Shown piece by piece: positions 16,392-47,087 of a stretch of 64,000 nucleotides of DNA. This DNA is from an uncultured Shinella sp. (GTDB lineage Bacteria > Pseudomonadota > Alphaproteobacteria > Rhizobiales > Rhizobiaceae). Numbering within the stretch: position 1 is the first letter of the stretch; each line of letters begins with the position of its first letter. A program made the translations under genes and the position numbers. The notes under the pieces are model-generated. The model saw nothing but the letters and a program-made list of their open reading frames with translations. It searched no databases and was not told where the DNA came from. The stretch covers positions 1 to 64,000 of the forward strand of contig NZ_CAMLFY010000013.1 of assembly GCF_946479415.1 (NCBI RefSeq), read 5' to 3'.

Positions 16392-16425
16392 GGCCATTCT
16401 CCGCATGTCGATTTCGGGGGGTGGT

Positions 16426-30957: not shown

Positions 30958-33666
30958 TTAAATCGATTGTCCTGTAATTTCGTCGGCGAGTTGGCTGACC
31001 GCAGGATCGTTTTGTCGCTTTAAGGCCGCCAGGTCCTCCTCGAACCACCATGGCGGATAAATCGATCGGTTTGTTATGGGCCGCGCATGGTAGCGGTAGT
31101 TCTTGATGCGTTCGTCACCGGACAGATAATGCAACCAAACGGCCGCCCTCAGGGGAAGATCCGACGCGACCTCCAATGCCTCCTCGAAGCGTACGAGCCG
31201 CTCGTAGTGGGCGCGATCCTGCGGGGCTGCCTGCCCGATGGGATAATCCAGCATGGCATAGTGCGAACACAGCACGGTCGGCTTTCCGTGCAATCCCAAC
31301 TCGATCGTGGACGTTCCGTTATAGACCAGCCCCATATCGATAAGGGTCATGAGATCCGCCATGTCGAACCAGTCATGCCCGAGTACGGAAACGTTCTCGT
31401 GATGGGGAACGTCGATCAGTTGCGCAAATGTTTCCGTGAGATAGGCGCCGATTTCGTTGCGATGCTCATGTGGATGGGGCTTTACCAACAGCAGCGTTTT
31501 CGAACCTGCGACGGAAGCGACCGTGTGGTTTATCCAATCATACATCGATTTATGGGCGGGACCGCCGTCGACCGGAACGCCGGAATCGCAAACGACCTTG
31601 CCGAAGGCGCATGCGACTTTCCCCCCTGCCGCTCGCCATGCGGCTATTTTTTGTACCACGGCTTCCGCTTCTGCCGGATGCTTCGACCCCACCCGGCGTG
31701 ATCGACGCAGGCGCGTTATGTCCTGCACGCGTTCAAGGATATCCGCGGCCTGTGGTAGAAACCGGCTGTAGTAATTCTCGAACTCCTGCGGGGTTGGAAA
31801 GCTGGGGGACCGCAAGAGCCCCGCTGCCGTCATGTTGCGAACAGCCATGCGGGAGGAGACCGGCTCGGAGAAGTTGGCGAAGTAGTTTTGATAGCCGTTT
31901 GCGCCTTGCGCACAGAAGAAGCGCTCGGGATCACCATTCTTGGCACACCAGGCGTGAACGATAGCGTCGGGTATTCTGGCCTGAAACGTCACCAACATGC
32001 CGGCGGGCAGCCCGACCGTTTGTAGAGCCTTGCGCATTTGCGGCAATACGGTTGCGGTCGATGCGGCCCAAGTGGTTTGTTTGCGGAGATATGTATTCAA
32101 TGCGGGGCAGTCGTATTCAACGCGATATCGACGCTGCTTGATGGCTGCTTCTTCCCATAGGGCCTGGTCGAAGTTGATACCGCCCACCCGGAGATGGCCA
32201 TTGGGAATATCGATGAGCATATCCTGTTCGCGATCGACTTCAATGTCGTTTCGCAACTGTCCCGTGGCACGAATGCAGCCCAGAAAGCAGTCGATTTCGG
32301 GCCGCCCCGTTGGCTCTAGAGGGAAAACGCCTTCCACGAGCGGGATAATCGCCCAGCCGCGCCGCTTGACTTCCTGCATCACCGTAATCGGAAGAAGAGT
32401 CGACAGGTTCGCCGTCATTGGCAACACGAACAGGACCCCCTTTGGGTCCGAAGGTTGTGGAATTTCGGACAAGAGGGCTGCAGCACGCGCTGAAAAGCCG
32501 AGCTGTCCGAGATGGATGACGGCTTTCCAGTGTTCATGTGCATCGGGACGAACGTTGTCCGACAGAAGGTATGCGGCATGGCGGGCCAGGAAGGCATATG
32601 CTTCGGCAAAGCGCCCTTGCCGCTGTAGTATGACCGCAAAAGTGGCGTAACCGATTTTATCCCGGAGCCTTTGCGGCAGATGTTTATGAATATCCTCGGC
32701 GATTTTGTATTCGCCGCATCGTGCGGCCCAGTCAAAGCAGAACCGGACGTCGATGGCAGAAAGTGGGCGGTGCAGATGCGTGGCGATAAGCTGTCGCGAA
32801 GGCTCCGCCCAGCGGTCGTAATCGGCTTTGATCAGGTTGGCGACGATGGGCCAGCGAACAAGGTAGCCGAGTGGGTGGCTCGCAAGCGCATACAGTCCCT
32901 CCGCCAGTTGCTCGGCCTCTGCCGTCAGTCCAATCTTCGCCGTAATATCGAGTGCTGAAATGAGCGGCCACGCGCGCAGGAGGCTGCGTCCTGCGGCGAG
33001 CGATGCAAAGGGTTCCTTCGAGCTGGTTTGCACCATTGAGTAGATTGGCGCGGCCAAGCGGGAGATTTCCGGCGCTATGCTAAGGTAGCATTCACGCGCC
33101 GCTGCGAAGGCGGGGCCATAGTTGGCAATCGGTCTGCGTGCAGTGGCAGACATCGATCGGATTGCCTTCAGCTTGCCAACGAGGGTCTTGGCCTTATTAA
33201 AGCGATTGCGACAATGGGCGATGTGCTCGACGAGTTTTCCCTGCTCAAGCAGCGATTTTCGCTCTATCGCCAGCTTCCGGTCGTCCGCTTCCTCTGCCTT
33301 GGTCTCGACGGTGATCCGATCGACAATCGCCAGCACCTGGTCAAGCCATCGCCGCTGCGATTTGTCTCCAGCTCGCGCCATGGCGGTCCGAATGGCGACG
33401 ACGGCGCCGTCTATATGTCCGTGTTTTGCGTAGACGACAGCGCGTATATAAGTCAGGTAAAGACCGGTCTCGCCGGAGAAGTCTTCCCGGCCGAAGGCTT
33501 CAAACAGGGATGCGCGCCCATCGGCTGAGGCCATCAGCTGCGTAATCGCGAAGGCATCATCATAAGAAGGTGTCCGCGTCCGCTTCTCGGACGCCGCAAC
33601 GCGCTTCAGCAGGTCGAGAACATTCGTCTCACCTGTCTCGGGCGCGAAGTAAGCTGCGTCGGCCAT
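30958..33666 (-). CDS. large glycosyltransferase-like protein with helical-repeat N-terminus (paralogue A)
   Basis: A 902-residue protein. The first 450 residues are helical and TPR-like (for example ILQRQGRFAEAYAFLARHA). The C-terminal half resembles Capsule_synth/GT-B proteins, with CAFGKVVCDS, LLVKPHPHE near 727 and YNGTSTIELGLHGKP near 780. It is a paralogue of the 41500 gene and diverges from pseB. A TPR region plus transferase is the design of flagellin glycosyltransferase FlmG, so transfer of the nonulosonic acid made next door is a reasonable inference. The ATG at 33666 has GGAG at the right distance; a TTG at 33795 would add 43 residues. Confidence 0.75.
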   Translation of the reverse strand: MADAAYFAPETGETNVLDLLKRVAASEKRTRTPSYDDAFAITQLMASADGRASLFEAFGREDFSGETGLYLTYIRAVVYAKHGHIDGAVVAIRTAMARAGDKSQRRWLDQVLAIVDRITVETKAEEADDRKLAIERKSLLEQGKLVEHIAHCRNRFNKAKTLVGKLKAIRSMSATARRPIANYGPAFAAARECYLSIAPEISRLAAPIYSMVQTSSKEPFASLAAGRSLLRAWPLISALDITAKIGLTAEAEQLAEGLYALASHPLGYLVRWPIVANLIKADYDRWAEPSRQLIATHLHRPLSAIDVRFCFDWAARCGEYKIAEDIHKHLPQRLRDKIGYATFAVILQRQGRFAEAYAFLARHAAYLLSDNVRPDAHEHWKAVIHLGQLGFSARAAALLSEIPQPSDPKGVLFVLPMTANLSTLLPITVMQEVKRRGWAIIPLVEGVFPLEPTGRPEIDCFLGCIRATGQLRNDIEVDREQDMLIDIPNGHLRVGGINFDQALWEEAAIKQRRYRVEYDCPALNTYLRKQTTWAASTATVLPQMRKALQTVGLPAGMLVTFQARIPDAIVHAWCAKNGDPERFFCAQGANGYQNYFANFSEPVSSRMAVRNMTAAGLLRSPSFPTPQEFENYYSRFLPQAADILERVQDITRLRRSRRVGSKHPAEAEAVVQKIAAWRAAGGKVACAFGKVVCDSGVPVDGGPAHKSMYDWINHTVASVAGSKTLLLVKPHPHEHRNEIGAYLTETFAQLIDVPHHENVSVLGHDWFDMADLMTLIDMGLVYNGTSTIELGLHGKPTVLCSHYAMLDYPIGQAAPQDRAHYERLVRFEEALEVASDLPLRAAVWLHYLSGDERIKNYRYHARPITNRSIYPPWWFEEDLAALKRQNDPAVSQLADEITGQSI

Positions 33667-34344
33667 ACGGCTCCAATCCTGATCCTCCTCGTAGGCGGTG
33701 GAGGCAACCAAAATATTTTGCGAGCGAATAGAAGTCGCCCGTCTTTCGTATCTCTTTCCGTGGCGTTCTAGCACCTGGGAATGTCCATGGTTCAAAATCC
33801 GTCATCGCCCCTCGCTTAAATCACAAGCGAGAGGAAATGGCGTCATATTTTCGGGCGAATGCCATCACATGCCTACAGGCGTCAAGGTCAAACGCTTGTC
33901 GGGTGCCGGAAGTGCTGGACAGTTTATTTGGTTTTGCAGGTGTCGGGAATTGCAGAATTCCTGGCGCAGGCACGGAAGGCATTGATAGGGGCATGACCGT
34001 TTGTCGGATTGCACGCCCTTGCGGCATGCACTTTCAGGATGCTGGACGAGTACGAAACGGTGTCGTTACAGCGTCTTTGTGGCTGCATTCGGATCGGGGT
34101 CTTGCGCTTGGTGCGGTGGATAAATGCGGCTGGAATCCTCGCGAAGTTCGCTGCGGGCCGGTCTTGCAAAAGAGTAGGAGTTTGCGATAGAGAGCGCTGA
34201 CAATGACACCTGAACTCTTCGTCTTTCCGGAACATTTCCGAACAGATCAAGAGTTTAAAGAATTCCTTCCCTTGTGTGGCGGCGTTCATATCTTTGGTTT
34301 CGGATCAAATCTGCCACAAGTTCAAAGAAGTAGAAACGAGCACT
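33667..34344. other. 678-bp divergent gap before pseB
   Basis: No convincing gene. Short open frames on both strands lack ribosome sites and familiar sequence. The stretch 33667-33795 could encode an N-terminal extension of the leftward transferase from a TTG. The rest is somewhat AT-richer than the flanks and must carry the promoters for the transferase and the pse operon; I could not place them with confidence. Confidence 0.5.
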
Positions 34345-35343
34345 ATGCACGACAGACCCTCCATCCTTGTCACCGGCGGCACTGGTTCGTTCGGCCATAC
34401 CTTTGTTCCGATGACGCTGGCGAAATACAATCCCAAGCGGCTGGTCATTTTGTCGCGAGACGAAATGAAGCAGTGGGAAATGGCCAAGCTCTATGGCGAT
34501 GACCCCCGCGTTCGCTTCTTTATCGGCGACGTGCGTGATGGTGCGCGCTTGCAGCGGGCTCTCGATGGCATCGACTACGTCGTCCACGCTGCCGCCACGA
34601 AGATCGTCCCGACAGCCGAATACAATCCGTTCGAATGCGTGAAGACCAACGTGATGGGCGCCATGAACCTGATCGATGCCTGCATCGACAAGGGCGTCAA
34701 GCGGTGCGTCGCGCTATCGACCGACAAGGCGAGCAGCCCGCTCAACCTCTATGGTGCGACCAAGCTGGCTTCCGACAAGCTGTTTGTCGCCGGCAATTCC
34801 TATTCAGGCACGCACAATACGCGTTTTTCGGTTGTTCGCTACGGCAACGTCATGGGCTCGCGCGGCTCGATTATTCCGCTGTTCCAGTCGCTGGCAGGCA
34901 CCGGCAAGCTTCCGATCACCGACGTTCGCATGACCCGCTTCATGATCTCTCTTGAAGAGGCCGTGGAACTGGTCTGGCATGCATTCGACGACATGATCGG
35001 CGGCGAAATCTACGTGAAGAAGATTCCCTCCATGCGCGTCGTCGACATTGCGTCCACGCTTGCGCCTGAAGCCGAGCACGACATCATCGGCATTCGTCCG
35101 GGTGAAAAGCTGCACGAGCAGATGATCGGCGAAGAGGATGCGTACAACACGTACGAATATCCTGGTCACTTCAAGATTCTTCCGTCCATCCACAACTGGC
35201 ATCTCGATGAAAGCCGCATCAAGGATGGCACGCGCGTCCCGGAGGGCTTCTCCTATCGTTCCGACAACAACTCGGAATGGATGTCTGATGCGCAGCTCTC
35301 GTCTTGGATCGACGCGAACGCCGGCAAGATCGGAAAGATCTGA
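34345..35343 (+). CDS. pseB: UDP-GlcNAc 4,6-dehydratase (5-inverting)
   Basis: A 332-residue SDR that carries out the first step of pseudaminic acid synthesis, making UDP-2-acetamido-2,6-dideoxy-L-arabino-hexos-4-ulose. The cofactor motif is TGGTGSFG. The catalytic STDKASSPLNLYGATK, with Asp-Lys in place of the usual Ser-Tyr pair, marks the inverting PseB/FlaA1 group. IRPGEKLHEQMI is also typical. The ATG at 34345 starts MHDRPSILVTGG. It heads a seven-gene operon; pseC begins after a one-base gap. Confidence 0.93.
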   Translation: MHDRPSILVTGGTGSFGHTFVPMTLAKYNPKRLVILSRDEMKQWEMAKLYGDDPRVRFFIGDVRDGARLQRALDGIDYVVHAAATKIVPTAEYNPFECVKTNVMGAMNLIDACIDKGVKRCVALSTDKASSPLNLYGATKLASDKLFVAGNSYSGTHNTRFSVVRYGNVMGSRGSIIPLFQSLAGTGKLPITDVRMTRFMISLEEAVELVWHAFDDMIGGEIYVKKIPSMRVVDIASTLAPEAEHDIIGIRPGEKLHEQMIGEEDAYNTYEYPGHFKILPSIHNWHLDESRIKDGTRVPEGFSYRSDNNSEWMSDAQLSSWIDANAGKIGKI

Positions 35344-35344
35344 C

Positions 35345-36505
35345 ATGGTTATTCCGTACGGGCGGCAAGACATCACCGAGGCCGATATCGACGCCGTCCG
35401 TGCGGTGTTGACGTCGGATTATCTTACGCAGGGACCCGCGGTAGGGCGGTTCGAGCGCGCACTGGCCGACGTTACAGAAGCCAAGTACTGCATCGCGTCG
35501 AACAGTGCCACGTCATCCTTGCATAACGCATGCAATGCGCTCGGCGTCGGGCCGGGCGATGTCGTCTGGACAAGCCCGATCACGTTCGTGGCCAGTGCGA
35601 ATTGTGCCCGCTATTGTGGCGCCGATGTCGATTTCGTGGATATTGACGCCCGTAGTTACACGATGAGCCCGGAACGCCTCGAAGCGAAGCTGCGTTCGGC
35701 GGAAAAGGAGGGGCGTCTTCCCAAAGTCGTCATCCCCGTCCATCTGGCCGGGCAGCCGGCCGACATGCCCGCGATTCGGGCCTTGTCGGAGCGTTACGGC
35801 TTCAAGGTTGTGGAAGACGCATCGCACGCCATCGGCGGCCGTATCGGTGATCGGCCGGTTGGTGCGTGCCAGTATTCCGATATCACCGTGTTCAGCTTCC
35901 ATCCTGTCAAGATCGTGACGACCGGTGAGGGTGGCGCAGCCACGACCAATGATCCTGTCCTGGCGCGGCGTATGGCTCTGTTCAACAGCCATGGTATCAC
36001 CCGTGATGCTACGGAAATGAGCAAGGAGCCGGACGGCGCCTGGTACTATGAGCAGGTCGCTCTCGGCTACAACTACCGCATGACGGATATCCAGGCGGCG
36101 CTTGGCCTCAGTCAGATGGAGCGGCTGACAGAGTATGTTGCAAAGCGCCATGTCATTGCCCGCATTTATGATGAGCAACTGCGTGGACTGCCCCTGGTAA
36201 CGCCGTGGCGCTCTGAGGGGGACTATTCCGGCTTTCATCTCTATGTGATCCGCTTGCAGCTCGATAAGGCCAAGCTGTCGCGGCGTGCGCTGTTCGACCT
36301 CCTGCGAAGCCGGAATATTCTGGTCAACCTCCATTATATTCCCGTCTACCGGCAGCCGGATTTCCAGCAGTTCGGCGCAAGGCCTGAGGATTTCCCCGAA
36401 GCGGAAGCCTATTATGCGGAGGCGATCAGCCTGCCGCTTTACCCCACGATGACTGACGAGCAACAGAGTTTCGTCATTTCGACGATTCGTGAGGCTTTGG
36501 CATGA
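35345..36505 (+). CDS. pseC: UDP-4-amino-4,6-dideoxy-L-altrosamine transaminase
   Basis: A 386-residue DegT/DnrJ/EryC1-type aminotransferase. Features are IPYGRQDITEADIDAV at the N-terminus, SNSATSSLHNACNALG, the VEDASHAIGG segment and the PLP-lysine motif FSFHPVKIVTTGEGGA. GYNYRMTDIQAALGLSQ and NLHYIPVYRQP are typical of PseC. It installs the 4-amino group that PseH would normally... not alter but leave free before N-acetylation by PseH, a gene not seen here. It overlaps pseF by four bases. Confidence 0.93.
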   Translation: MVIPYGRQDITEADIDAVRAVLTSDYLTQGPAVGRFERALADVTEAKYCIASNSATSSLHNACNALGVGPGDVVWTSPITFVASANCARYCGADVDFVDIDARSYTMSPERLEAKLRSAEKEGRLPKVVIPVHLAGQPADMPAIRALSERYGFKVVEDASHAIGGRIGDRPVGACQYSDITVFSFHPVKIVTTGEGGAATTNDPVLARRMALFNSHGITRDATEMSKEPDGAWYYEQVALGYNYRMTDIQAALGLSQMERLTEYVAKRHVIARIYDEQLRGLPLVTPWRSEGDYSGFHLYVIRLQLDKAKLSRRALFDLLRSRNILVNLHYIPVYRQPDFQQFGARPEDFPEAEAYYAEAISLPLYPTMTDEQQSFVISTIREALA

Positions 36506-37209
36506 GACTAGCCGTCATCCCGGCCCGCGGAGGGAGCAAGCGTACGCCACGCAAGAATGTGCGCCCCTTCGCAGGCCGTCCGATGATCGCTTGGCCTATC
36601 GAAGCGGCTATCTCTTCCGGCGTGTTCGACGCTGTTGTCGTGTCGACCGACGACGAGGAGATAGCTGCGACGGCCGAGGCATGCGGCGCGACTGTTCCTT
36701 TCAGGAGGCCTGTGCATCTCTCCGATGACCACACGCCGACGCGACCTGTCATTCGGCATGCGATCGAAGCGGTGGAAGCGTCCGGTGCGACGGTCGAGCA
36801 GGTTTGCTGCCTCTATGCAACGACCCCCTTCATCACGGCCGACGATCTCGTTGCCGGACTGAAGGCGCTGGAGACGTCTGCGAACGGTTTCTCCGTTTCC
36901 GTCACGCATTACGCGCATCCGATCCAACGGGCTTTACGCCTTTGCGCGGATGGCACGACATTGCCATTGGACGAAGCCAAGTTGGCGACACGTTCACAGG
37001 ATCTGGAAGAAATGGTGCATGACGCGGGCTCCTTCTATTGGGGAACACGGGGTGCGTTCATGAGCGAGCGTTCGATTCTGGCCTCGGGGTCGGCTGCCGT
37101 CGTCCTGCCGACCTGGCGGGTTTGTGATATCGATACGGAAGATGACTGGACACGCGCCGAATTGATGTTCCAGGCAATGTTTCCAAGCGGCAAGCCGGAT
37201 CAAAGATGA
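36502..37209 (+). CDS. pseF: CMP-pseudaminic acid synthetase
   Basis: A 235-residue cytidylyltransferase. The nucleotide-binding IPARGGSKRTPRKN (residues about 6-19) is typical of the NeuA/PseF family, followed by GRPMIAWPI, VSTDDEEIA and the CCLYATTPF segment in the middle. It activates the finished sugar with CTP for transfer. Four-base overlaps link it to pseC upstream and pseG downstream. Confidence 0.92.
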   Translation: MRLAVIPARGGSKRTPRKNVRPFAGRPMIAWPIEAAISSGVFDAVVVSTDDEEIAATAEACGATVPFRRPVHLSDDHTPTRPVIRHAIEAVEASGATVEQVCCLYATTPFITADDLVAGLKALETSANGFSVSVTHYAHPIQRALRLCADGTTLPLDEAKLATRSQDLEEMVHDAGSFYWGTRGAFMSERSILASGSAAVVLPTWRVCDIDTEDDWTRAELMFQAMFPSGKPDQR

Positions 37210-38243
37210 TTGCGTTTTGCGTCGATGCAACACCGCAAGTCGGGATGGGGCATCTGGTTCGTTGCCGGGTCCTTGCCGATGCGTTTCAGGCGATCGGGCA
37301 GAAAGCGGTCATCTACGGCCCGTCCACATCCTACCGGCTTGCCGAAGATGAAACGCGGTTTGCCGCGTGGTGCGAGCGGGTGCCCGGCGCGTCGATAGGG
37401 GCGGATGCGGCCGCTTTCATGGCATTTGCTGACGCACATGGCGCAAAAAAAGCAGTCATCGACGACTACCGTGCGAATGGTGAATTCCAGCAGGTGCTTC
37501 AGAACGCGGGCATGGACTGGTTGCAGCAGTTCGACGCCAGCCGTGAACAGGTTTTCCTAGGTCGCCTCGTCGTGAACGCTTCGCCCTATGAGCGTCCCGA
37601 ACATTACCGGGCCGTCGCCTCGCATCCTGAGGTTCGATTCCTTCTGGGACCCCGCTATGCGATCCTCCGCAAAGAATTCGAAGGGATCGTGGTCCCCAAG
37701 CCGAGAGAGCAAACCGGCAACGTGTTCCTGTCGTTTGGAGGGGGAGACGACAAGGGAGCGGCACTTGGCGTGCTTTCTGCGCTCCAACCGATTGCAGGGC
37801 CGGATACGCGCCTCCATCTCGTGTCGGGTGCCTCCAATCCGCGAATCGCGGAAATTGCCGCGAGAATTGAAGCGGAAGGTTGGAGGAACGTCATTCTGCA
37901 CGTCAATCCTCCTGATATTCCGAAGCTGATGGTCGCCTCCGATCTTGCTATTCTTGGCGGTGGAACCACCACCTATGAGGCCGCCCGTTGCGGCCTCCCG
38001 ATGCTTCTGCTGGCCATCGCCGAAAATCAGGTCCGGCAGTCTCAAGGCTGGGAGGATCTCGGTGCTGCCCGTTATCTCGGGCGCTGGGGCGACGTGACGC
38101 CTGGAGAGGTAGCCGAAGCCTATGCGACGCTTGTCGAAACCGTGGGTCTTGCCGCAGAAATGGCACGGCGCGGTACGGAATTGGTTGATTGCGGCGGGAC
38201 GCGCCGCTTGATGAACATGTTATTGAAAGGCGTGGAAGAATGA
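37206..38243 (+). CDS. pseG: UDP-2,4-diacetamido-trideoxy-altropyranose hydrolase
   Basis: A 345-residue GT-B-fold hydrolase that removes UDP from the diamino sugar. The N-terminal GMGHLVRCRVLADAF contains the catalytic His of PseG. FLSFGGGDDKG and ILGGGTTTYEAARCGLPML are the nucleotide-binding part. No GNAT (PseH) domain is fused to either end, as happens in some species. Its TGA overlaps the start of the ATP-grasp gene (ATGA). Confidence 0.9.
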   Translation: MIAFCVDATPQVGMGHLVRCRVLADAFQAIGQKAVIYGPSTSYRLAEDETRFAAWCERVPGASIGADAAAFMAFADAHGAKKAVIDDYRANGEFQQVLQNAGMDWLQQFDASREQVFLGRLVVNASPYERPEHYRAVASHPEVRFLLGPRYAILRKEFEGIVVPKPREQTGNVFLSFGGGDDKGAALGVLSALQPIAGPDTRLHLVSGASNPRIAEIAARIEAEGWRNVILHVNPPDIPKLMVASDLAILGGGTTTYEAARCGLPMLLLAIAENQVRQSQGWEDLGAARYLGRWGDVTPGEVAEAYATLVETVGLAAEMARRGTELVDCGGTRRLMNMLLKGVEE

Positions 38244-39400
38244 GCAAGGTTGCCCTGGTTTTGGGAACGAATGCCGGTCAGGCCGACTTGATCCGCCATC
38301 TGAAGGATGATGCCTGGGTCGTGCATGCTTGTGCGCACCGGGCAGGTGGCGCCGGCGAGCCGCTTGCGGACGCATTCCATCTTCTGGATATCAGTAAGCC
38401 CGCGGATGTGACCGCACTGGCAAAAGACGTCCACGCCGAAATTGTCTATTCCTGCTCGTCGGATATTGCGGTACCCGCAGTTATCGAAGCATCCGATGCG
38501 CTCGGTTTGCCGCATTTTTTCGATCCCGAACTGATCGACCTCTTCAATCAGAAGACCAAGCTGCGTGCGTGGCTCAATGAGCAGGACCTCAGTCCCGTAC
38601 CATTCATTCGTCTTTCCGATGTCGCGGAGGCTGCCGGCTGGTCTATTTTTCCGTGCATCGTGAAGCCCTCGGATAGCCAAGGCCAACGCGGTGTCGCCAA
38701 GATCGAAGACATTCAGGATCTTTCTGGTGCCGTCGAACGGGCGATTGCGCTTTCTCCCACCGGGTCGGCCATCATCGAAGCCTATCTTAATGGTGTAGAG
38801 GTTTCGACGAACGTGCTCGTTTCGGGCGGCAAGATCGTCGTCGCCGAACTTTCCGAGCGCCTCGTCCATGGCGATCATATGATCGGCGTACCCTCGGGTC
38901 ATCTAATCCCGACCGCCAATGTTTCCCAGGCTGATGTCGATGCGACCGACCGGCTTGTCCGCGATGTCGTGCAGCGCCTCGGCATTAGCAACGGGTGCCT
39001 CTATTTTCAGATGAAGGTGACCGACAAGGGGCCGAGGATTGTCGAGATTGCGCCGCGCATCGATGGTTGCCATATCTGGCGTCTGATCCTTGCCGCCCGG
39101 GACTTCGACTTCATGGAACTGACCCTGAAAACCCTCACCGGCGAAATCCTGGACGTGGTCGAAGGTCGGGATACGGAGGAGGCCGTTTATGAGCTGATGT
39201 TCCAGCAGGCTGCACCCGGTACGGTTTTCCAGGCGGAAAATTTCCCGCGCCCCGACGATGCCGTCTATCACGAGTGGCGCTACAATGACGGCGATGTCGT
39301 CGGTGCGATTAACGGCCGGCTCGAAGTGGTCGGCTATTATGTCCGCCTGTCGCCGGAATGGACCCGCCGCCGTGCCGAAGTGATGGCGAAAGGAGCTTGA
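38240..39400 (+). CDS. ATP-grasp ligase in the pseudaminic acid operon
   Basis: A 386-residue carboxylate-amine ligase-like protein. Residues 1-90 form a pre-grasp Rossmann-like domain. The ATP-grasp fold covers about 100-300, with IVKPSDSQGQRGVAKI as the flexible loop, IIEAYLNGVEVSTNVLV, and the Mg site KGPRIVEIAPRIDGCH. Such enzymes join a carboxylate to an amine through an acyl phosphate. It sits between pseG and pseI, where an N-acyl group must be added, so it may attach an amino or hydroxy acid to a sugar amine. That role is inferred; no characterised homologue is recalled. Confidence 0.78.
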   Translation: MSKVALVLGTNAGQADLIRHLKDDAWVVHACAHRAGGAGEPLADAFHLLDISKPADVTALAKDVHAEIVYSCSSDIAVPAVIEASDALGLPHFFDPELIDLFNQKTKLRAWLNEQDLSPVPFIRLSDVAEAAGWSIFPCIVKPSDSQGQRGVAKIEDIQDLSGAVERAIALSPTGSAIIEAYLNGVEVSTNVLVSGGKIVVAELSERLVHGDHMIGVPSGHLIPTANVSQADVDATDRLVRDVVQRLGISNGCLYFQMKVTDKGPRIVEIAPRIDGCHIWRLILAARDFDFMELTLKTLTGEILDVVEGRDTEEAVYELMFQQAAPGTVFQAENFPRPDDAVYHEWRYNDGDVVGAINGRLEVVGYYVRLSPEWTRRRAEVMAKGA

Positions 39401-39402
39401 AG

Positions 39403-40302
39403 GTGAGGGTCGCTGTAACCGGAGCGAACGGTTTTCTCGGTGGTAACCTGCTGCGGGCGCTTGTTAATGCCGGCATGGCGGTAACAGCGTTGACGCGCGA
39501 TGCGGAGGCCCTAGCGAAGACAGCGCCCGTTGGCGTGACCGTTCATGAAACCGATTACAGCGCCGAATCCATTACCGGCTGGATGGAGGGACAGGATGCT
39601 GTCGTCCATTTGGGTGGACGCAGGATGGCGCGAACCGATGCCGCCCGGGGAATGGGTCCTTTCCTGGAGCCCAATCTGGCCTTGACGGAGCGTGTCGCCG
39701 CAGCCGCTGTCGCTGCCGGTGTCGGTCGCGTGGTGTTCGCTTCGAGCACCGCCGTCTATTCCGCCCTTGACGCCGTACCCTTCGTCGAGACCTGCATACC
39801 CCATCCGATCAATGCCTATGGCTTGTCGAAATTGATGGGAGAGCAGATCATCGAACTGATATGCCGCGGGACGAAGACCGAAGCGATATCACTGCGCTTC
39901 TCGGCGCTCTTTGGTGCGGGAGAACGGACAACCGGCGTGCTCATGCGCTTTGTCGCTGAAGCAGAAGCCGGGCGCGACATCGTCATGAACGGAAACCCCC
40001 AATACGGCGTCGATCAACTCTATGTGGAGGATGCTGCCGGGGGTATTATCGCAGCGCTGATGTCGCCATCGGCTCGAGGTGTTTACAATATCGGCGGCGG
40101 GCGGGCTTGGTCTGTTGCCGAAATGGCTGAAGCGGTTGTCGCTGCCTGTGCTCATCCGGTGTCTATCCGCCATGAAGATCCCCATGACGGACCGGTGCCC
40201 CAGCCGTTCATGGCCATCGATAAGGCGGCCCGCGATCTCGGCTGGTCACCGAAGTTCGATCTTGTTTCCGGTCTTGCCTCAATGGCGCCCAGAACGCCTT
40301 GA
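39403..40302 (+). CDS. NAD-dependent epimerase/dehydratase-like SDR
   Basis: A 299-residue extended SDR. The cofactor motif TGANGFLGGNLL is at residues 6-17, then FASSTAVYS and the YGLSK (YxxxK) catalytic pair, VDQLYVEDAAGGIIAAL and a NIGGGRAWSV segment. The start is GTG at 39403, supported by AAAGGAG nine bases upstream. It could epimerise or reduce a nonulosonic acid precursor or make a second activated sugar. It is not part of the standard six-step Pse pathway. Confidence 0.82.
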   Translation: MRVAVTGANGFLGGNLLRALVNAGMAVTALTRDAEALAKTAPVGVTVHETDYSAESITGWMEGQDAVVHLGGRRMARTDAARGMGPFLEPNLALTERVAAAAVAAGVGRVVFASSTAVYSALDAVPFVETCIPHPINAYGLSKLMGEQIIELICRGTKTEAISLRFSALFGAGERTTGVLMRFVAEAEAGRDIVMNGNPQYGVDQLYVEDAAGGIIAALMSPSARGVYNIGGGRAWSVAEMAEAVVAACAHPVSIRHEDPHDGPVPQPFMAIDKAARDLGWSPKFDLVSGLASMAPRTP

Positions 40303-40367
40303 CGTCGCCGTTATTAAGTTGTTTTCCCTGTGGCAAGTTTTGCCACCAACCAGTTTGAAAGCTCCTC

Positions 40368-41429
40368 ATGTCGCAGTTCAAGAAAGCCGTCTACGCCGGG
40401 ACAGACAAAGTGCTCGACGACAGCCCGTTCATCATCGCCGAGATGTCCGGGAACCATAATGCATCGCTTGAGCGCGCCTTCGAAATCGTTGACGCTGCCG
40501 CCGAAGCCGGCGCAGACGCGCTGAAGCTGCAGACCTACACTGCCGAAACCATGACGCTGAACATGACGCGTGGCGAATTCAGCATTTCCGACCCCAAATC
40601 CCTGTGGGCCGGCCGTGACCTCTATAGCCTTTACAAGGAAGCCCATACGCCCTGGGAGTGGCACAAGCCGATTTTCGATCGTGCTCGCCAGCACGGTATG
40701 CTCTGCTTCTCGTCTGCTTTCGACGAGACGTCTGTTGATTTTCTGGAGACGCTGGATGTGCCGGCCTACAAAGTCGCGTCCTTTGAGCTGACCGATATTC
40801 CGCTCATCCGCAAGGTGGCCGCAACCGGTAAGCCGCTCATCATGTCGACCGGCATGGCGACGATCGGGGAGATTGATGATGCCGTAACGGCGGCTCGCGA
40901 AGCCGGGTGCGAAACGCTGGCATTGTTGAAGTGCACGAGCACATATCCTGCCCCGCCGGCCAATACGAACCTCCTTACGATCCCTCACATGGCGCAGTTG
41001 TTCGGCTGTGAAGTGGGACTTTCGGACCACACGCTCGGCGTCGGCGTTCCCGTCGGTGCAACGGCACTGGGAGCGACGGTCATCGAAAAGCACTTCTGCT
41101 TGGCACGTAGCGAAGGCGGCGTCGATTCTGCTTTCTCGCTGGAACCGGCAGAATTCAAGCAGATGGTCGAGGAGTGCAAGCGGGTGAAGCAGGCCGTAGG
41201 CCGGGTGTGGTACGGCGCCACCGAATCGGAGGTGAAGGCGCGCACGCGCCGTCGTTCGCTCTATGTCGGCGTCGACCTGCAGCCTGGCGATGAACTTACC
41301 GTCGAAAACCTCCGGCGCATTCGTCCGGGTCTCGGCCTGGCACCGAAATTCTATGACACTCTGCTGGGCCGCAAGGTCACCAAGGCGGTTCCGGCAGGTA
41401 CGCCGGTCTCTTGGGACCTTTTCTCCTGA
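40368..41429 (+). CDS. pseI: pseudaminic acid synthase
   Basis: A 353-residue NeuB-family enzyme condensing the trideoxy hexose with phosphoenolpyruvate. The TIM barrel has IIAEMSGNHNASLERA, LKLQTYTAETMTL, KVASFELTDIPL, STGMATIGEI and the metal motif EKHFCLARSEGGVDSAFS. A C-terminal SAF domain (about 285-350) reads RRSLYVGVDLQPGDELT. The family splits into Neu, Leg and Pse synthases; the PseB/C/F/G neighbours favour Pse. Confidence 0.93.
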   Translation: MSQFKKAVYAGTDKVLDDSPFIIAEMSGNHNASLERAFEIVDAAAEAGADALKLQTYTAETMTLNMTRGEFSISDPKSLWAGRDLYSLYKEAHTPWEWHKPIFDRARQHGMLCFSSAFDETSVDFLETLDVPAYKVASFELTDIPLIRKVAATGKPLIMSTGMATIGEIDDAVTAAREAGCETLALLKCTSTYPAPPANTNLLTIPHMAQLFGCEVGLSDHTLGVGVPVGATALGATVIEKHFCLARSEGGVDSAFSLEPAEFKQMVEECKRVKQAVGRVWYGATESEVKARTRRRSLYVGVDLQPGDELTVENLRRIRPGLGLAPKFYDTLLGRKVTKAVPAGTPVSWDLFS

Positions 41430-41499
41430 CCCCATACGGCCCCTGCAAAGGGAAGGGGATCTGATCTGCGGCTGAAGTATTTTATTGGGGTGATATGCA

Positions 41500-44400
41500 A
41501 TGATACCGGAACGCAATCAGGTTGATGCCGAAAATCCGCCATCGAACGGATTTGCAGATGCGGTCGTCACATCGGATCCCCTGGCCGAGAACGCCGTGCC
41601 GGCTCGCGGCACGGTTGTTGAACTTGTAACAAATAACAATCCCGATGTGAGCCTCAAGGAAACTGTTCCCGAGCCCACAGGTGCCAAGAAGCCGAAAGCT
41701 GCCAAGGCAAAGGGCGCAGTACGCCCCGCAGTCCGTAAGCCAGCCTCTCGCCCTGCTGGTGTGCGGCAATCGATCATCCGCCCCTTCAAGAAAATGTTGG
41801 CCGCTGTCCGCAAGATTCATCGTAACGCTGTCGGTACCGGCCGTCAGAGGGTGCGTGGCCATATCGACAAGATGGATTTCAACCAGGCTCCCGGCAAGCT
41901 TTTGCCGACGTCCTGGAAGGACGCATCGAGATTACGCCGACTGAAGACGAGCTCAAGCAGTCAAGAAATCTTCGAGGCAATGCTGGCTATCGGGCGCGGG
42001 GAGGCGCAGCGGGGAGTCGTCAACCTGAGCACAGCTGGCTTCCTCAATACGGTGCTTGCTTCCACCGAGCTGCGAGAAAAACTCATCCAACCTGTGAAGG
42101 ATGCTGTTGAGCAGTATCCGGGCAGCGTTTATCTCACATATGTATATTCTGTCATGCTTGCGAAGGCTGGCGAATATGGCCAGGCGGCCGATTTTGTTCT
42201 TTCTGCGATGAGACAGGAGCGGGAATCGCACGCCGATTCCCAATCCCAGTCGAGAGCGCCGTCCTCGCGCGCCAAGCTTCTGACCAAAGTTTGGCGTGTC
42301 GTCGATTCCATATCGCGCGACAACATGGCCGTGACGGGAGATGGCGGCGCCGAAGGAGAGGATTCTCAGGGAGATCCGTTGGCTGGCGAGCGTTCCTGGC
42401 AACAGGGACAGACAGGCACATATCTCGACGCATGCAGGCAAAACTTTGAGCATGGCAAAAGCCTAAAGGCACGTCTCGATGCAATCGAAAGCATGACGAA
42501 GCTGGGTTTGCGCCGTATGCCGGCCTATCATGACGCCTATGCGCTTGCCCGGGGATCCTATCTCGAAATTCGCCCAAAATGGGCCGACATGGTCGGGCTT
42601 CCTTTGAAATCGAAGCAGCTCGGTCTTGCCTCTGATAAGGGCATGAAAGCCGTAAGGCTATTGACCCAGGTAATGCGTGTTGCGGAGAAATTGGGCTTCA
42701 CCGAAGATTTGGAGCTTATTTCAGCCACGCTGTTCAAGATTTCCAAAAATCCGAAAGCGAGCGGTTCGGCCTGGACGATTGCTGCGGCGCTTTCGGCTGT
42801 CGATGCCGAGCGCTGGCATAAGCCTACTCTTGGCGTGTTGAGAAAACTGAAACTATCCAGAAACTCGGCTCGCGACGTCAAGGCGTTCTTCCTTTGGGCC
42901 TTGAGATGCGGCGAATATGGATGGGCCATGTCCGTCTATAAAACTCTGCCGAACACGGTTGCGATGTCGGTGGCGGCCGCACCCATGGCCAAGATCCTTC
43001 AGCGGAAGGGCAGCTTCAGTGCCGCGGCAACGCTGCTGAAGCGGGTTTGCGCGGCAAACCTGATTAAGCTCGATAAGTTTGATCCGATTGTTCATTGGGG
43101 TTACATCAAGCAAATCGGCGAAATGGAATTTGCCGCAAGCACGACAAAATATCTCCGGATGGTGCCGCAGCCCACCGAACCCAAGGGGGTCATTTTTCTC
43201 GCTCCGCGGGCTGTCGACCAGACGACTCGCTTCCCGCTGATCGTCCTGCTCGAAATGAAAAGACGAGGCTGGGCCATCATTCCGCTTTTTGAGGGCACGC
43301 TTCCACTAGACAAGACCGGTAACCCGAAGATTGACCAGTTCTTGGGATGCTTCCTGGGAAGCGGAAGGTTGCGGGCCGAGCGGGAGAAGGCATTTGATCC
43401 GATCGAGAATTTCAACGTCGAGGTTGAGACAGGCCATCTCCGCTGGGACACGATCGATCTCACGCATCCCCTCTGGGAAGAGGCTGCGGTTAACAGGCGT
43501 CGGTACAATGTCGATTACACCTGCCCCGCATTGGTCAGCAATCTGTCACGGCTTGCGAATTTGACGCGCATGACGGGCGTGGTGCTTCAGACGGCGCGAC
43601 GTGTGATGGCGGAGCTGGATCTGCCCTTGGGATTCATGGTGAATTTCCAAGCGCGCCTCCCTGATGTCGTGGTGCGCCTCTATTGTGAAACCCATGGAGA
43701 TCCCGAAAAGTTTTTCTGTATTCACGGCACGAATGGCTACCAGAACTATTTCGCCAATTTCTCGTCGCCGGTTTCAACGCGAATGGCCATCCGGAACATG
43801 ACGGCCACCCGGGTCAATCGTACGGCAAGTTTTCCAACGCCGTCCGAGTTTGAAACGTTCTTTGATGAGCATCGGGACGAAGCTCCCTCGATCCTTGAGC
43901 GGGTAAGGGATATAACGAAAGTCAGGCGTTCGACGAGTACGCTGACGGAGCGTCCCGCGGAAGCCGAAGCATGCCGGGAGCGCATTGCCGCATGGCGCGC
44001 CGAAGGCGGGTTGGTGGCCTGTGCATTTGGCAAAGTGGTCTGCGATTCGGCAGTTCCATTTGATGGCGGGCCGGTTCACCGGAACATGGCCGAATGGCTC
44101 AATCATACAATAGACGCCGTCCGCGGGTCCCGGACGCTATTGTTGATAAAGCCTCACCCTCACGAATTGAAGAATGAAATCGGCGCCTTCCTGACGGAGT
44201 TCTTCAGGGACCTGATCACCGGAGATTTGCCGGAAAATGTCATCTACCTCGGCCACAACTGGTTCGACATGGCTGACATGAAGGATCTTATCGACGTCGG
44301 CACGGTCTATAACGGCACGACAACCATAGAATTGGGCCTTTTGCAGATTCCGGGTATCGTCTGCTCAGACTTTGCGCCCCGTGATTATCCTGTTGGACAG

Positions 44401-45507
44401 ATTGCGCCACGTGATCGCGCGCACTACGAGCGGATGCTTCGAGGAGAGGAAAGCGTCAATGTGGGCGACGATGTTCCTTTGAGAGCAGCGACCTGGCTTC
44501 ATTACATGAGTGGGAGTTACCGTATTCGGGATTATCGCTACCACTCCCGCCAGATCACAAACAAGGTTGTGAGCCCTCCATATTGGTTCCACGATGATGT
44601 TACGGCCTATCTGCAGCACGGAGACCCGAACGTGGAATTCCTGGCAGATCAGCTTCTGCCGTCGCCCCAGCCTGTGGGCAGGGATGGGTCGGCTCCGGGA
44701 GAAAATCAGTCTAGCAACGTCGTTGTCGCTTTCGAACCTGCTTCGGCCGGTAGCGTTACCGTATCTTCCGACGTGCGGTCAGTGACGGAGGGGAGTTGGG
44801 CCGCGCAACCTTCTAATTTTACAGCAAGTGGGCGGAATGATCGGACCTTCCAGAAGTTGGCCAGTCTTTTCCAGGCCGAAGGTATAGAGCGCCCGAGGAT
44901 CCTCTCCTTCGGGTGCTCTGAAGGCCTCGAGACATTGGACATACTTCGTGTAATTCCGAATGCTGAGGTTCATGGCTGCGACATCAATCGAGATGCTCTT
45001 GCGGTTGCTGCTGAGCGGTGCAGGGATACGGGCATATCGATTTATGAAAGTACGTCTTCAGAACTGCGCGCGCGCGGCCCTTTTCACGCCGTCGTCGCGA
45101 TGAATGTCCTTGTGAATTGGCCGGCAAGTTATAGCCTTGATGAAATCGGCCATCTCTATCCGTTTAAGTTGTTTGATGACACCATCACCACGATCTTCGA
45201 TACTTTGGCGCCGGGAGGATATCTCGGTGTCTATAACGCGTGCTTCTGCGTAGAGCACACGCGTGTGGGAGAGCAGTTTGAAGCTGTCGAGCAATCGGTC
45301 CCGAAGGACAATGGATGGGTTGACAAGTATGGTACCGACAACCGCAGGATTGCCGTAGCATGTGACACGAAGCGAGTGCCCATAGCCATGAAAGATTGGC
45401 GTCGCTACATGAACAACAATGCTGGAGATTCCGCCCCAAAGACGGTGCATTTCGAGACCTCCGGCCCAGCAAATTGCAAGACAATCCTTTGGCGTAAGAA
45501 AGCGTGA
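41500..45507 (+). CDS. giant glycosyltransferase-like protein fused to a methyltransferase (paralogue B)
   Basis: A 1335-residue protein. Residues 1-110 are Ala/Lys/Pro-rich and low complexity; about 130-600 are helical and TPR-like. About 600-1060 match paralogue A at 30958 (CAFGKVVCDS, LLIKPHPHE near 883, YNGTTTIELGLLQIP near 936). After a Ser/Gly-rich linker, about 1130-1335 form a methyltransferase domain with ILSFGCSEGLETLDI and AVVAMNVLVNWP. The fusion suggests one polypeptide that transfers and O- or N-methylates a surface sugar, perhaps on flagellin. GGGGTG precedes the ATG. It lies 70 bp after pseI. Confidence 0.75.
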   Translation: MIPERNQVDAENPPSNGFADAVVTSDPLAENAVPARGTVVELVTNNNPDVSLKETVPEPTGAKKPKAAKAKGAVRPAVRKPASRPAGVRQSIIRPFKKMLAAVRKIHRNAVGTGRQRVRGHIDKMDFNQAPGKLLPTSWKDASRLRRLKTSSSSQEIFEAMLAIGRGEAQRGVVNLSTAGFLNTVLASTELREKLIQPVKDAVEQYPGSVYLTYVYSVMLAKAGEYGQAADFVLSAMRQERESHADSQSQSRAPSSRAKLLTKVWRVVDSISRDNMAVTGDGGAEGEDSQGDPLAGERSWQQGQTGTYLDACRQNFEHGKSLKARLDAIESMTKLGLRRMPAYHDAYALARGSYLEIRPKWADMVGLPLKSKQLGLASDKGMKAVRLLTQVMRVAEKLGFTEDLELISATLFKISKNPKASGSAWTIAAALSAVDAERWHKPTLGVLRKLKLSRNSARDVKAFFLWALRCGEYGWAMSVYKTLPNTVAMSVAAAPMAKILQRKGSFSAAATLLKRVCAANLIKLDKFDPIVHWGYIKQIGEMEFAASTTKYLRMVPQPTEPKGVIFLAPRAVDQTTRFPLIVLLEMKRRGWAIIPLFEGTLPLDKTGNPKIDQFLGCFLGSGRLRAEREKAFDPIENFNVEVETGHLRWDTIDLTHPLWEEAAVNRRRYNVDYTCPALVSNLSRLANLTRMTGVVLQTARRVMAELDLPLGFMVNFQARLPDVVVRLYCETHGDPEKFFCIHGTNGYQNYFANFSSPVSTRMAIRNMTATRVNRTASFPTPSEFETFFDEHRDEAPSILERVRDITKVRRSTSTLTERPAEAEACRERIAAWRAEGGLVACAFGKVVCDSAVPFDGGPVHRNMAEWLNHTIDAVRGSRTLLLIKPHPHELKNEIGAFLTEFFRDLITGDLPENVIYLGHNWFDMADMKDLIDVGTVYNGTTTIELGLLQIPGIVCSDFAPRDYPVGQIAPRDRAHYERMLRGEESVNVGDDVPLRAATWLHYMSGSYRIRDYRYHSRQITNKVVSPPYWFHDDVTAYLQHGDPNVEFLADQLLPSPQPVGRDGSAPGENQSSNVVVAFEPASAGSVTVSSDVRSVTEGSWAAQPSNFTASGRNDRTFQKLASLFQAEGIERPRILSFGCSEGLETLDILRVIPNAEVHGCDINRDALAVAAERCRDTGISIYESTSSELRARGPFHAVVAMNVLVNWPASYSLDEIGHLYPFKLFDDTITTIFDTLAPGGYLGVYNACFCVEHTRVGEQFEAVEQSVPKDNGWVDKYGTDNRRIAVACDTKRVPIAMKDWRRYMNNNAGDSAPKTVHFETSGPANCKTILWRKKA

Positions 45508-45592
45508 CACCTGCATGCTGGAGGTGCCTTTAATGTCGGTGCGCAAAATTTGAGGGTGGTGTCGCCGTTTTATTCAGCGGCGTCAGTTTTAC

Positions 45593-45615
45593 GCTTGTAA
45601 AATAACTTTACAAGC
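45593..45615. promoter_or_regulatory. AT-rich inverted repeat
   Basis: GCTTGTAAA (45593-45601) and TTTACAAGC (45607-45615) are perfect 9-bp arms around ATAAC, in the 242-bp gap between two transferase genes. It could be an operator for the downstream gene or a weak terminator; no T tract follows. Confidence 0.45.
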
Positions 45616-45758
45616 TTGTCATCGGTGGTTGGGCGTCGCATCGTTTGACTTTCAGATATCGGCTGATATCAAGCGCAGGGTCCAAATTGCCACGCGGGGA
45701 TCCTCGATGGGGATGAGCGCGGTTTGATTTCTCCTGCGTTCATTGTTGGATGGATGCA

Positions 45759-47087
45759 ATGGTGAGCCTGAAGGTGCTGTCATGGCGCAGGCTTCCCGCA
45801 TATGCCTTGGAGCTAAATGTGCAAAGTCTGGCGCGAATTTTCGGCTTCCTGACAGAAAAGCGGAGCGCCGAACTTCCAAAGTGGTTTCAGCCAAATCAAC
45901 CAAAAGATGCGCTCAGCGAAAGGCCGATTTTTCTGTACCAATCCTGGATTCCAGAGCATACCGATAAGCTAATTCTATCGCTGGCTCGGCCGCAAGAATA
46001 CCAGCTCAAGAACATTGATATGTTTTCGGGTCAAGCTGACAAATTAACGCGAGCCTCCATCCTGAAGTTCGCCGCCAAAAACGGCGATCTCTACAGGAAG
46101 ATGTGTCTTCATAAGCTCATGCCTTATCGGGAGAGGGCAGCCGGTCTCGTCGTTACCTTGGATTGGACGCCAGCGATGCGGCATCTGGTTTATGCGGCAA
46201 GCCAATTGGGCATTCCGACGATTCTGGTCCCTCATGAATCTGTTTTCGCTTCACGGAGCATGTACTACTTGCATCCCAAGCTGTTTATCGACACGCCAGC
46301 CTGCGATCTTGTTTGCACGTGGGGTGATCTTCAAACGGAGATTTTTATTGAGCGGGGCTATCCTGTAGAGCGGATCGTCAAGACGGGTGGGCCAAAGTTC
46401 GACTACCTCCAAAGTGTCCGCAACCTGAACCCTTCCCACAAGGAACCTTTGCGCGCGCTCGGTCTTGATCCATTCAAGTTTACCGTCACCTTCGCGACCC
46501 AGCCACTTGATAGTCAATATACATCCTGGAAGAAGACGATGCGCGCTCAGGAAGATGCGCTGACCGATGCATTAGATTGGATCCAGGCCAGAGAAAATAC
46601 CCAGTTGATGATACGGCTGCCGCCCTCCAGGGGGGAGCTGTTTGGGAAGTCTACCTATGAGCGCATCGCGGCAATGCCGAATGCCGCCGTTGACGACTCA
46701 AACCTTTATTTGCTTTCCGCTGAAGAAGCGATTGCGGCGTCGGAAACGATCATCTCGGTAAACAGTACAATGCTTCTCGAGGCTGCCCTATGTGGGCGCA
46801 CAGCGATCAGCTCGAAATATATTCACTTCGATCAGATTTGGGACAATCTGAAGATTCCCGTTGCGCACAATAGGGCAGAACTGCACGCATCGCTTGATGC
46901 CGCTCGTTCACAACCTGCTGAGATCGTGGCGAAATACGACATTGGATGGGCGGAGAAGCAGTTTTCCAACTCGGGCTTTGACGGTCGTGCTGCGGAACGC
47001 ATTTCAGAAATCTTTGTACAGATTTCACGCGGCAATTTTGACCTCAAGCCTGGCTATGCGCAAACTACCCCATTCCTGCCGGGGTAG
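45759..47087 (+). CDS. GT-B-fold glycosyl/glycerophosphotransferase-like protein
   Basis: A protein of about 442 residues with the outline of CDP-glycerol glycerophosphotransferase or UDP-GlcNAc 2-epimerase-like GT-B folds. It has GIPTILVPHESVFASRSM in the first domain, VKTGGPKFDYLQ at the hinge, and TIISVNSTMLLEAALCGRTAIS, the usual nucleotide-sugar pocket, in the second. The exact start is unclear: ATGs at 45750 and 45759 are in frame, the latter with GGATGG upstream. Base composition is more AT-rich than the flanks. It likely contributes to the surface-glycan locus. Confidence 0.72.
   Translation: MVSLKVLSWRRLPAYALELNVQSLARIFGFLTEKRSAELPKWFQPNQPKDALSERPIFLYQSWIPEHTDKLILSLARPQEYQLKNIDMFSGQADKLTRASILKFAAKNGDLYRKMCLHKLMPYRERAAGLVVTLDWTPAMRHLVYAASQLGIPTILVPHESVFASRSMYYLHPKLFIDTPACDLVCTWGDLQTEIFIERGYPVERIVKTGGPKFDYLQSVRNLNPSHKEPLRALGLDPFKFTVTFATQPLDSQYTSWKKTMRAQEDALTDALDWIQARENTQLMIRLPPSRGELFGKSTYERIAAMPNAAVDDSNLYLLSAEEAIAASETIISVNSTMLLEAALCGRTAISSKYIHFDQIWDNLKIPVAHNRAELHASLDAARSQPAEIVAKYDIGWAEKQFSNSGFDGRAAERISEIFVQISRGNFDLKPGYAQTTPFLPG

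Follow-up and report, generated by a model that had tools for sequence, protein, structure and literature searches.

The acetyltransferase PseH is regarded as a constant component of pseudaminic acid (Pse) biosynthesis, so that operons lacking it look incomplete. One such operon occupies positions 34345-41429 of the stretch analyzed here (hereafter the window), which comprises 64,000 nucleotides of contig NZ_CAMLFY010000013.1 from an uncultured Shinella sp., and it raises the question of how the PseH step is accomplished when the other pathway enzymes are present. The answer that we consider likely is that in this pseudaminic-type operon the acetyl-CoA-dependent step of PseH is performed by a different chemistry, with an ATP-grasp ligase N-acylating the product of PseC. 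The placement of the ATP-grasp protein at this step is suggested by the near-exclusion of PseH-like GNAT domains from the loci that encode it, and by its joint divergence with PseG and PseI. The operon represents a genuine variant of the pseudaminic pathway with a broad distribution; in this variant the ATP-grasp protein and a short-chain dehydrogenase/reductase (SDR) most likely stand in the place of PseH.

Gene content and layout of the operon

The genes are arranged in the order pseB-pseC-pseF-pseG-ATP-grasp-SDR-pseI:

34345..35343, + strand: pseB, UDP-GlcNAc 4,6-dehydratase (inverting); TIGR03589, 518.7 bits (cut-off 407.75)
35345..36505, + strand: pseC, aminotransferase, with its ATG at 35345; TIGR03588, 541.3 bits (cut-off 423.5)
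36502..37209, + strand: pseF, CMP-Pse synthetase; TIGR03584, 288 bits (cut-off 205.7)
37206..38243, + strand: pseG, UDP-sugar hydrolase of the ATP-grasp-associated sub-family; TIGR03590, 141.9 bits (cut-off 153.55)
38240..39400, + strand: ATP-grasp ligase, the proposed PseH replacement; PF13535, 47.6 bits (cut-off 27)
39403..40302, + strand: extended SDR, partner of the ligase; PF01370
40368..41429, + strand: pseI, pseudaminic acid synthase; TIGR03586, 487.8 bits (cut-off 340.25)

ATGA overlaps join pseC to pseF, pseF to pseG and pseG to the ATP-grasp gene, whose stop codon is separated by a gap of 2 bases from the GTG start of the SDR gene; a spacer of 65 bases lies between the latter and pseI. 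PseB, PseC, PseF and PseI (4/4) all exceed their NCBIfam equivalog cut-offs; PseG scores slightly under its own and retains the GxGH motif. PseI reads LLKCTSTYP in the position where LLHCTSxYP is usual (residue 188). These family matches and coordinates bear out the layout described by a first-pass annotation of the sequence, namely a pseB/C/F/G/I operon with an ATGA-joined ATP-grasp gene and an extra SDR. Its statement that no GNAT gene or fusion is visible also holds within the window: none of the ten window proteins scanned with Pfam and NCBIfam (30958-47084) matched a GNAT family, and two PseH/GNAT profiles of our own, run against frames of at least 60 residues across the whole window, returned nothing at E <= 10.

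The ATP-grasp protein and the SDR as a conserved module

The first-pass annotation had proposed a survey of ATP-grasp genes beside pseG and pseI in other rhizobia. An alignment of 42 ATP-grasp sequences (A1) was scanned against one genome per species, and the best 80 of 185 stretches encoding a relative were retained, giving 79 loci. The family was defined as 32 of these (L001-L032, best segment 32-59% identical), and L033-L079, with weak partial matches only, were left out. The 32 loci recur across several phyla, with 17 in Alphaproteobacteria, 2 in Psychrobacter, 1 in Sulfurimonas, 5 in Bacteroidota, 1 in a spirochaete, 2 in Bacillota, 2 in Nocardioides, 1 in a WOR-3 bacterium and 1 in the haloarchaeon Natronoglomus; many of the genomes are metagenome-assembled (MAGs).

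The ATP-grasp and SDR genes form a conserved module. An SDR gene lies immediately downstream of the ATP-grasp gene in 31 of the 32 loci, a near-constant partnership that had escaped the first-pass annotation, and the sole locus without it (L032) is also the one with a local GNAT. The gene directly upstream is pseG in 22 loci as called by script (including L005, which shows a pseG-like piece of 120 residues only) and, as assigned by hand, in L003. A PseG-ATP-grasp fusion in L003 was considered and rejected, as the 659-residue frame overlies an ordinary pseG in another frame. Downstream, pseI occurs within four genes in 26/32 loci and anywhere in the locus in 28/32. Of the four loci without it, three (L011, L012 and L028) are contigs measuring about 5 kb, L011 retaining pseB, pseC and pseF; the fourth is L027, where the pair lies outside a Pse operon with neither pseG nor pseI nearby. 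The module is also found on plasmids, namely p4 of Tritonibacter mobilis (L201) and pMaD10 of Marinovum algicola (L202); in the latter the ATP-grasp match falls in two pieces, the longest open frame being 262 codons, and looks interrupted in the record. A second NeuB/PseI-like gene (a weak match, mostly about 305-315 residues) lies near pseG in several loci of roseobacter type (L007, L009, L013, L014, L026, L201 and L202).

The AlphaFold2 model of the window ATP-grasp protein (predicted local distance difference test score, pLDDT, 94.9) has an L-amino acid ligase (LAL) and PurT among its structural matches. It is predicted to display, over its whole length, the fold of carboxylate-amine ligases, a superfamily characterized by ATP-dependent amide formation. 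The 42-sequence alignment has 46 invariant columns that mark a family of its own, the closest relative being that of Shinella sp. M31 (91% identical), and the C-terminal LAL domain (PF18603) was not matched in the window protein at E <= 0.001. A spirochaete MAG carries a second ATP-grasp gene with this domain between pseG and the module (L005, 3508-4713), and in L009 (8696-11131) the ATP-grasp region is preceded in the same frame by about 435 residues that appear, by eye, hydrolase- and tetratricopeptide repeat-like. The SDR adopts the fold of UDP-sugar 4-epimerases (3m2p chain A, template modeling score 0.88). Its catalytic Ser, Tyr and Lys are invariant across 25 aligned sequences, as is an Arg after the second strand. 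As an Arg in this position is associated with NADP(H) preference, its invariance hints at this cofactor, and our guess is that the SDR carries out a net oxidation or reduction of the UDP-sugar.

Near-exclusion of PseH-like acetyltransferases

PseH-like GNATs and the ATP-grasp protein are nearly exclusive in Pse loci. Controls were drawn from alphaproteobacterial genomes with PseI, 65 of 385 passing the cut-off. Among these 65 the ATP-grasp family has one clear member, in R. herbae (already in the set), and a second genome, G082, has a weak match (99.9 bits). The 40 control loci used were the best-scoring, with one skipped, and extended up to 19 kb around PseI, some ending at contig ends (the shortest at 3.5 kb). 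An iterated GNAT/PseH profile detected the domain in 31/40 controls against 1/32 ATP-grasp loci (Fisher p 4e-11); with the ATP-grasp loci restricted to Alphaproteobacteria, the comparison is 31/40 against 0/17 (p 2e-8). As some of the seed sequences of this profile came from control loci, a cross-check with Pfam was made on 52 of the 57 unassigned open reading frames (ORFs) of 110-290 residues within 8 kb of the ATP-grasp genes. PF13302, PF13420 and PF00583 each had one member among the 52 at E <= 1e-8, and PF13302 had one member at E <= 0.001 (among the 25 of 40 families listed), the same family being matched by all 26 control GNAT domains scanned. That the single GNAT-matching ORF is the one in L032 would fit these counts; one of the 52 ORFs matches an AAC(3)-type family.

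In 13/40 controls the PseG frame has the GNAT as its C-terminal portion, and ordinary operons thus often place PseH precisely where the ATP-grasp gene follows pseG. TIGR03585 was rejected as the sole test for PseH, since it exceeds its cut-off in just 3/65 of the alphaproteobacterial PseI genomes; genome-wide, it is above cut-off in one of the 32 ATP-grasp genomes (G011) and gives weak matches in 30. Three control loci with neither a GNAT nor an ATP-grasp gene (L167, L177 and L197) have a PseB or PseC among those nearest to the window's. A PseH-like match occurs elsewhere in the genome of L167, and none above 75 bits was found for L177 and L197.

Divergence of the Pse enzymes and the proposed position of the ligase

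If the ligase step lies between those of PseC and PseG, adaptation to the ligase product is to be expected in the later enzymes and is not required of the earlier ones. We counted changes between ATP-grasp-locus and control labels on quick trees, some with long branches. PseB required 7 changes (shuffled mean 12.3), PseC 6 (13.5) and PseF 5 (10.9), against 3 (19.2) for PseG and 2 (21.3) for PseI. One PseG clade of 23 (Shimodaira-Hasegawa-like approximate likelihood ratio test, SH-aLRT, 98) unites sequences from alpha- and gammaproteobacteria, a spirochaete and Bacteroidota; L032 falls just outside it, and those of Nocardioides and the haloarchaeon lie elsewhere. The five rows nearest to the window proteins are mixed groups for PseB, PseC and PseF, and are all ATP-grasp rows for PseG and PseI. 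Likewise, across 13 loci with all genes, window included (78 pairs, not independent of each other), distances of the ATP-grasp protein correlate with those of PseI (rho 0.95), PseG (0.94), the SDR (0.92), PseF (0.80), PseC (0.49) and PseB (0.41); with all available pairs the values are PseG 0.89, SDR 0.84, PseI 0.77, PseF 0.70, PseC 0.47 and PseB 0.47.

Marker residues, chosen post hoc and then recounted over all rows, show the same separation. In PseG (28 ATP-grasp rows and 29 controls) Q95 is present in 25 versus 2, G180 in 24 versus 1, D182 in 23 versus 1 and W282 in 23 versus 0. In PseI, K188 (LLKCTSxYP) is found in 23/28 ATP-grasp rows versus 2/40 controls, 36/40 of the latter having H. 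The PseG and PseI encoded beside the ATP-grasp protein constitute sub-families of their own, and PseB and PseC intermingle with those of ordinary loci.

Proposed pathway and its alternatives

We infer the position of the step, the amine acylated and the role of the SDR as follows. PseB and PseC would yield UDP-4-amino-4,6-dideoxy-L-AltNAc; the ATP-grasp protein would activate a free carboxylic acid as an acyl phosphate and join the acyl group to the 4-amine. The C4 amine of the UDP-sugar is N-7 of the nonulosonic acid, and the acylated amine would hence become this nitrogen. The SDR would use the same UDP-sugar, most likely for a reduction, for which a carbonyl of the newly attached acyl group is one possible target. 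Substrate-adapted versions of PseG and PseI would then produce the free nonulosonic acid, and PseF the CMP-sugar. The sugar of this operon is probably decorated differently from ordinary pseudaminic acid.

Several observations weigh against this pathway. L032 carries a PseH-like GNAT within the ATP-grasp locus itself, and two of the 32 ATP-grasp genomes (G020 and G011) have matches above 75 bits to a PseH-like profile (A2) elsewhere, in frames of 484 and 462 residues, which, judged by size, may be PseG-PseH fusions that belong to an additional pathway of the ordinary kind. Nine of the 40 controls have no local GNAT; a match above 75 bits elsewhere occurs in three of these (G303, G097 and G284) and is missing in the other six, so that a missing recognizable PseH is not peculiar to the module. 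The A2 profile is not fully sensitive, its best match scoring 43.0 bits in G367 and 37.8 bits in G268 despite local GNAT calls (L198 and L199). An AAC(3)-type N-acetyltransferase that could acetylate the amine adjoins pseG and the ATP-grasp gene on the Tritonibacter plasmid. PseB, PseC and PseF also cluster beyond shuffled labels, but far less than PseG and PseI, and adjacency, which alone can cause neighboring genes to co-diverge, contributes to the correlations. Finally, according to the available part of a study on Caulobacter, loss of FlmH together with two paralogs does not produce the phenotype shown by the other mutants of the pathway (PMC7591256), which implies that other enzymes can cover for PseH.

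It is conceivable, although we regard it as unlikely, that N-7 is served as usual by an N-acetyltransferase that is unlinked or promiscuous, and that the ATP-grasp protein and SDR come in at a later stage, adding or making a further group either on a neighboring sugar or on the nonulosonic acid in its free or CMP-bound form. The apparent redundancy of PseH in Caulobacter (PMC7591256, in the part available), the weak TIGR03585 matches in 30/32 genomes and the plasmid-borne AAC(3)-type enzyme are all compatible with such a decoration, but the local near-exclusion of GNATs and the specialized PseG and PseI would be unexpected if the group were added after PseI. The first-pass annotation had allowed for both replacement of acetate and later decoration; the near-exclusion and the co-divergence favor the former and make the latter less attractive. 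Quite improbable is a ligase that takes acetate itself, yielding ordinary Pse5Ac7Ac, with the SDR engaged in a separate task: PurT, which joins formate, itself a small acid, to an amine carried on a sugar, is among the best structural matches and PseI remains within its equivalog, but the PseG and PseI sub-families and the constant SDR would be left unexplained. That the pair makes a different metabolite and merely shares the operon, as L027 might suggest, is very hard to reconcile with the presence of pseI in 28/32 loci, with three of the other four being contigs of about 5 kb (one of them, L011, still with pseB, pseC and pseF), and with the joint divergence of the ATP-grasp protein, PseG and PseI.

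Neighboring genes and the fate of the product

The operon is flanked by two related proteins of an undescribed family, in which KPHPHE is invariant and an NGTTTIELG-like stretch is present:

41500..45507, + strand: 1335-residue protein with a C-terminal methyltransferase domain, candidate product transferase
30958..33795, - strand: 945-residue protein

Beyond the methyltransferase domain the 1335-residue protein matched no family, and no PDB match was better than E 0.18. Relatives of these proteins occur in 18/32 ATP-grasp loci, all 18 proteobacterial, versus 0/40 controls, making the family candidate transferases for the product. Elsewhere in the window (13597-16406, - strand) lies a member of the 5-guanidino-2-oxopentanoate decarboxylase family (786 bits, cut-off 500), next to an aminotransferase for which GntC is the best model, with a score below cut-off. 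In two Bacteroidota loci (L020, 2190-3549; L023, 7539-8942) a formyltransferase-type protein and a PIG-L de-N-acetylase adjoin pseG; the other N-acyl group may be exchanged there, with the ATP-grasp protein serving N-7.

The neighbors scanned showed no enzyme of donor synthesis recurring from locus to locus, and the attempt to name the acid from neighboring genes was dropped on this account. The lactoyl pseudaminic acid of Psychrobacter marincola was set aside as a product, as its lactate is on N-5 rather than N-7 in the part of the report available (PMC7281560). The suggestion in the first-pass annotation that the product is destined for flagellin did not find support, the module lying near transport and capsule export genes on the two roseobacter plasmids (L201 and L202).

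The proposed acylation of the PseC product by the ATP-grasp ligase allows a broader but only tentative proposal: a transferable PseG-ligase-SDR-PseI cassette might install a 7-N group derived from an ATP-ligated keto or other acid and reduced by the SDR on the UDP-sugar, giving rise to undescribed nonulosonic acids, which the large proteobacterial transferase family would pass on. The cassette would range over Proteobacteria, Bacteroidota, Spirochaetota and Actinomycetota, and in part reach a haloarchaeon. A title search of the open-licence literature, covering part of the matches, found no paper on an ATP-grasp/SDR pseudaminic module. If the proposal is correct, ligase-based acylation would account for a set of PseH-less operons; the signature of an ATP-grasp and SDR gene beside pseG with LLKCTSxYP in PseI would predict an unusual 7-N-acyl group; and the enzymes could be used for making new nonulosonic acids. 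Such sugars decorate flagella and capsules, and have a role in recognition by phages, plants and animals.

Comparison with known systems

The window operon encodes five of the six enzymes of the CMP-pseudaminic pathway of Helicobacter and Campylobacter (PseB, C, H, G, I and F), and differs from it in that PseH was not found in the window, an ATP-grasp protein and SDR being present instead, and in its separate PseG and PseI sub-families. The alphaproteobacterial flm system of Caulobacter and rkp-3 system of Rhizobium NGR234 (rkpL, M, N, O, Q and rkp3_013) possess the same core enzymes, but, unlike in the window, their third step is performed by an N-acetyltransferase, FlmH or Rkp3_013, and the available part of the report mentions no ligase (PMC7591256). 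The window ATP-grasp protein differs from the LALs (BL00235, RizA and BacD) and from PurT, PurD and PurK, with 12-16% identity to such enzymes in structural comparison, in forming its own family and in lacking the C-terminal LAL domain. The SDR has its fold and catalytic Ser, Tyr and Lys in common with the UDP-sugar 4-epimerases 3m2p and MoeE5, but is only 21-28% identical to them and has the invariant Arg that follows its second strand. From marine bacteria, 4-amino-4,6-dideoxy-glucose bearing N-acetyl-alanyl groups is described in the available part of another report (PMC3210612).

The sfmABCDE operon of Shewanella oneidensis is reminiscent of the window in combining NeuB-domain, oxidoreductase and ATP-grasp_4 genes, although the likeness of SfmE is by gene description only; it adds genes for a thiamine diphosphate (TPP) enzyme and a methyltransferase (PMC3765264, in the part available). 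Among the ten window proteins scanned (30958-47084) there is no TPP enzyme, and the sole methyltransferase domain is that of the 1335-residue protein. In the same part of that report, PseB and PseC are the only homologs found by its authors outside the sfm cluster, the operon including the ATP-grasp gene sfmE is required for flagellin modification, and the flagellin sugar behaves as Pse with one N-acetyl group and a C9H16O7 unit (PMC3765264). Our reading is that SfmE may attach this extra unit to the free amine.

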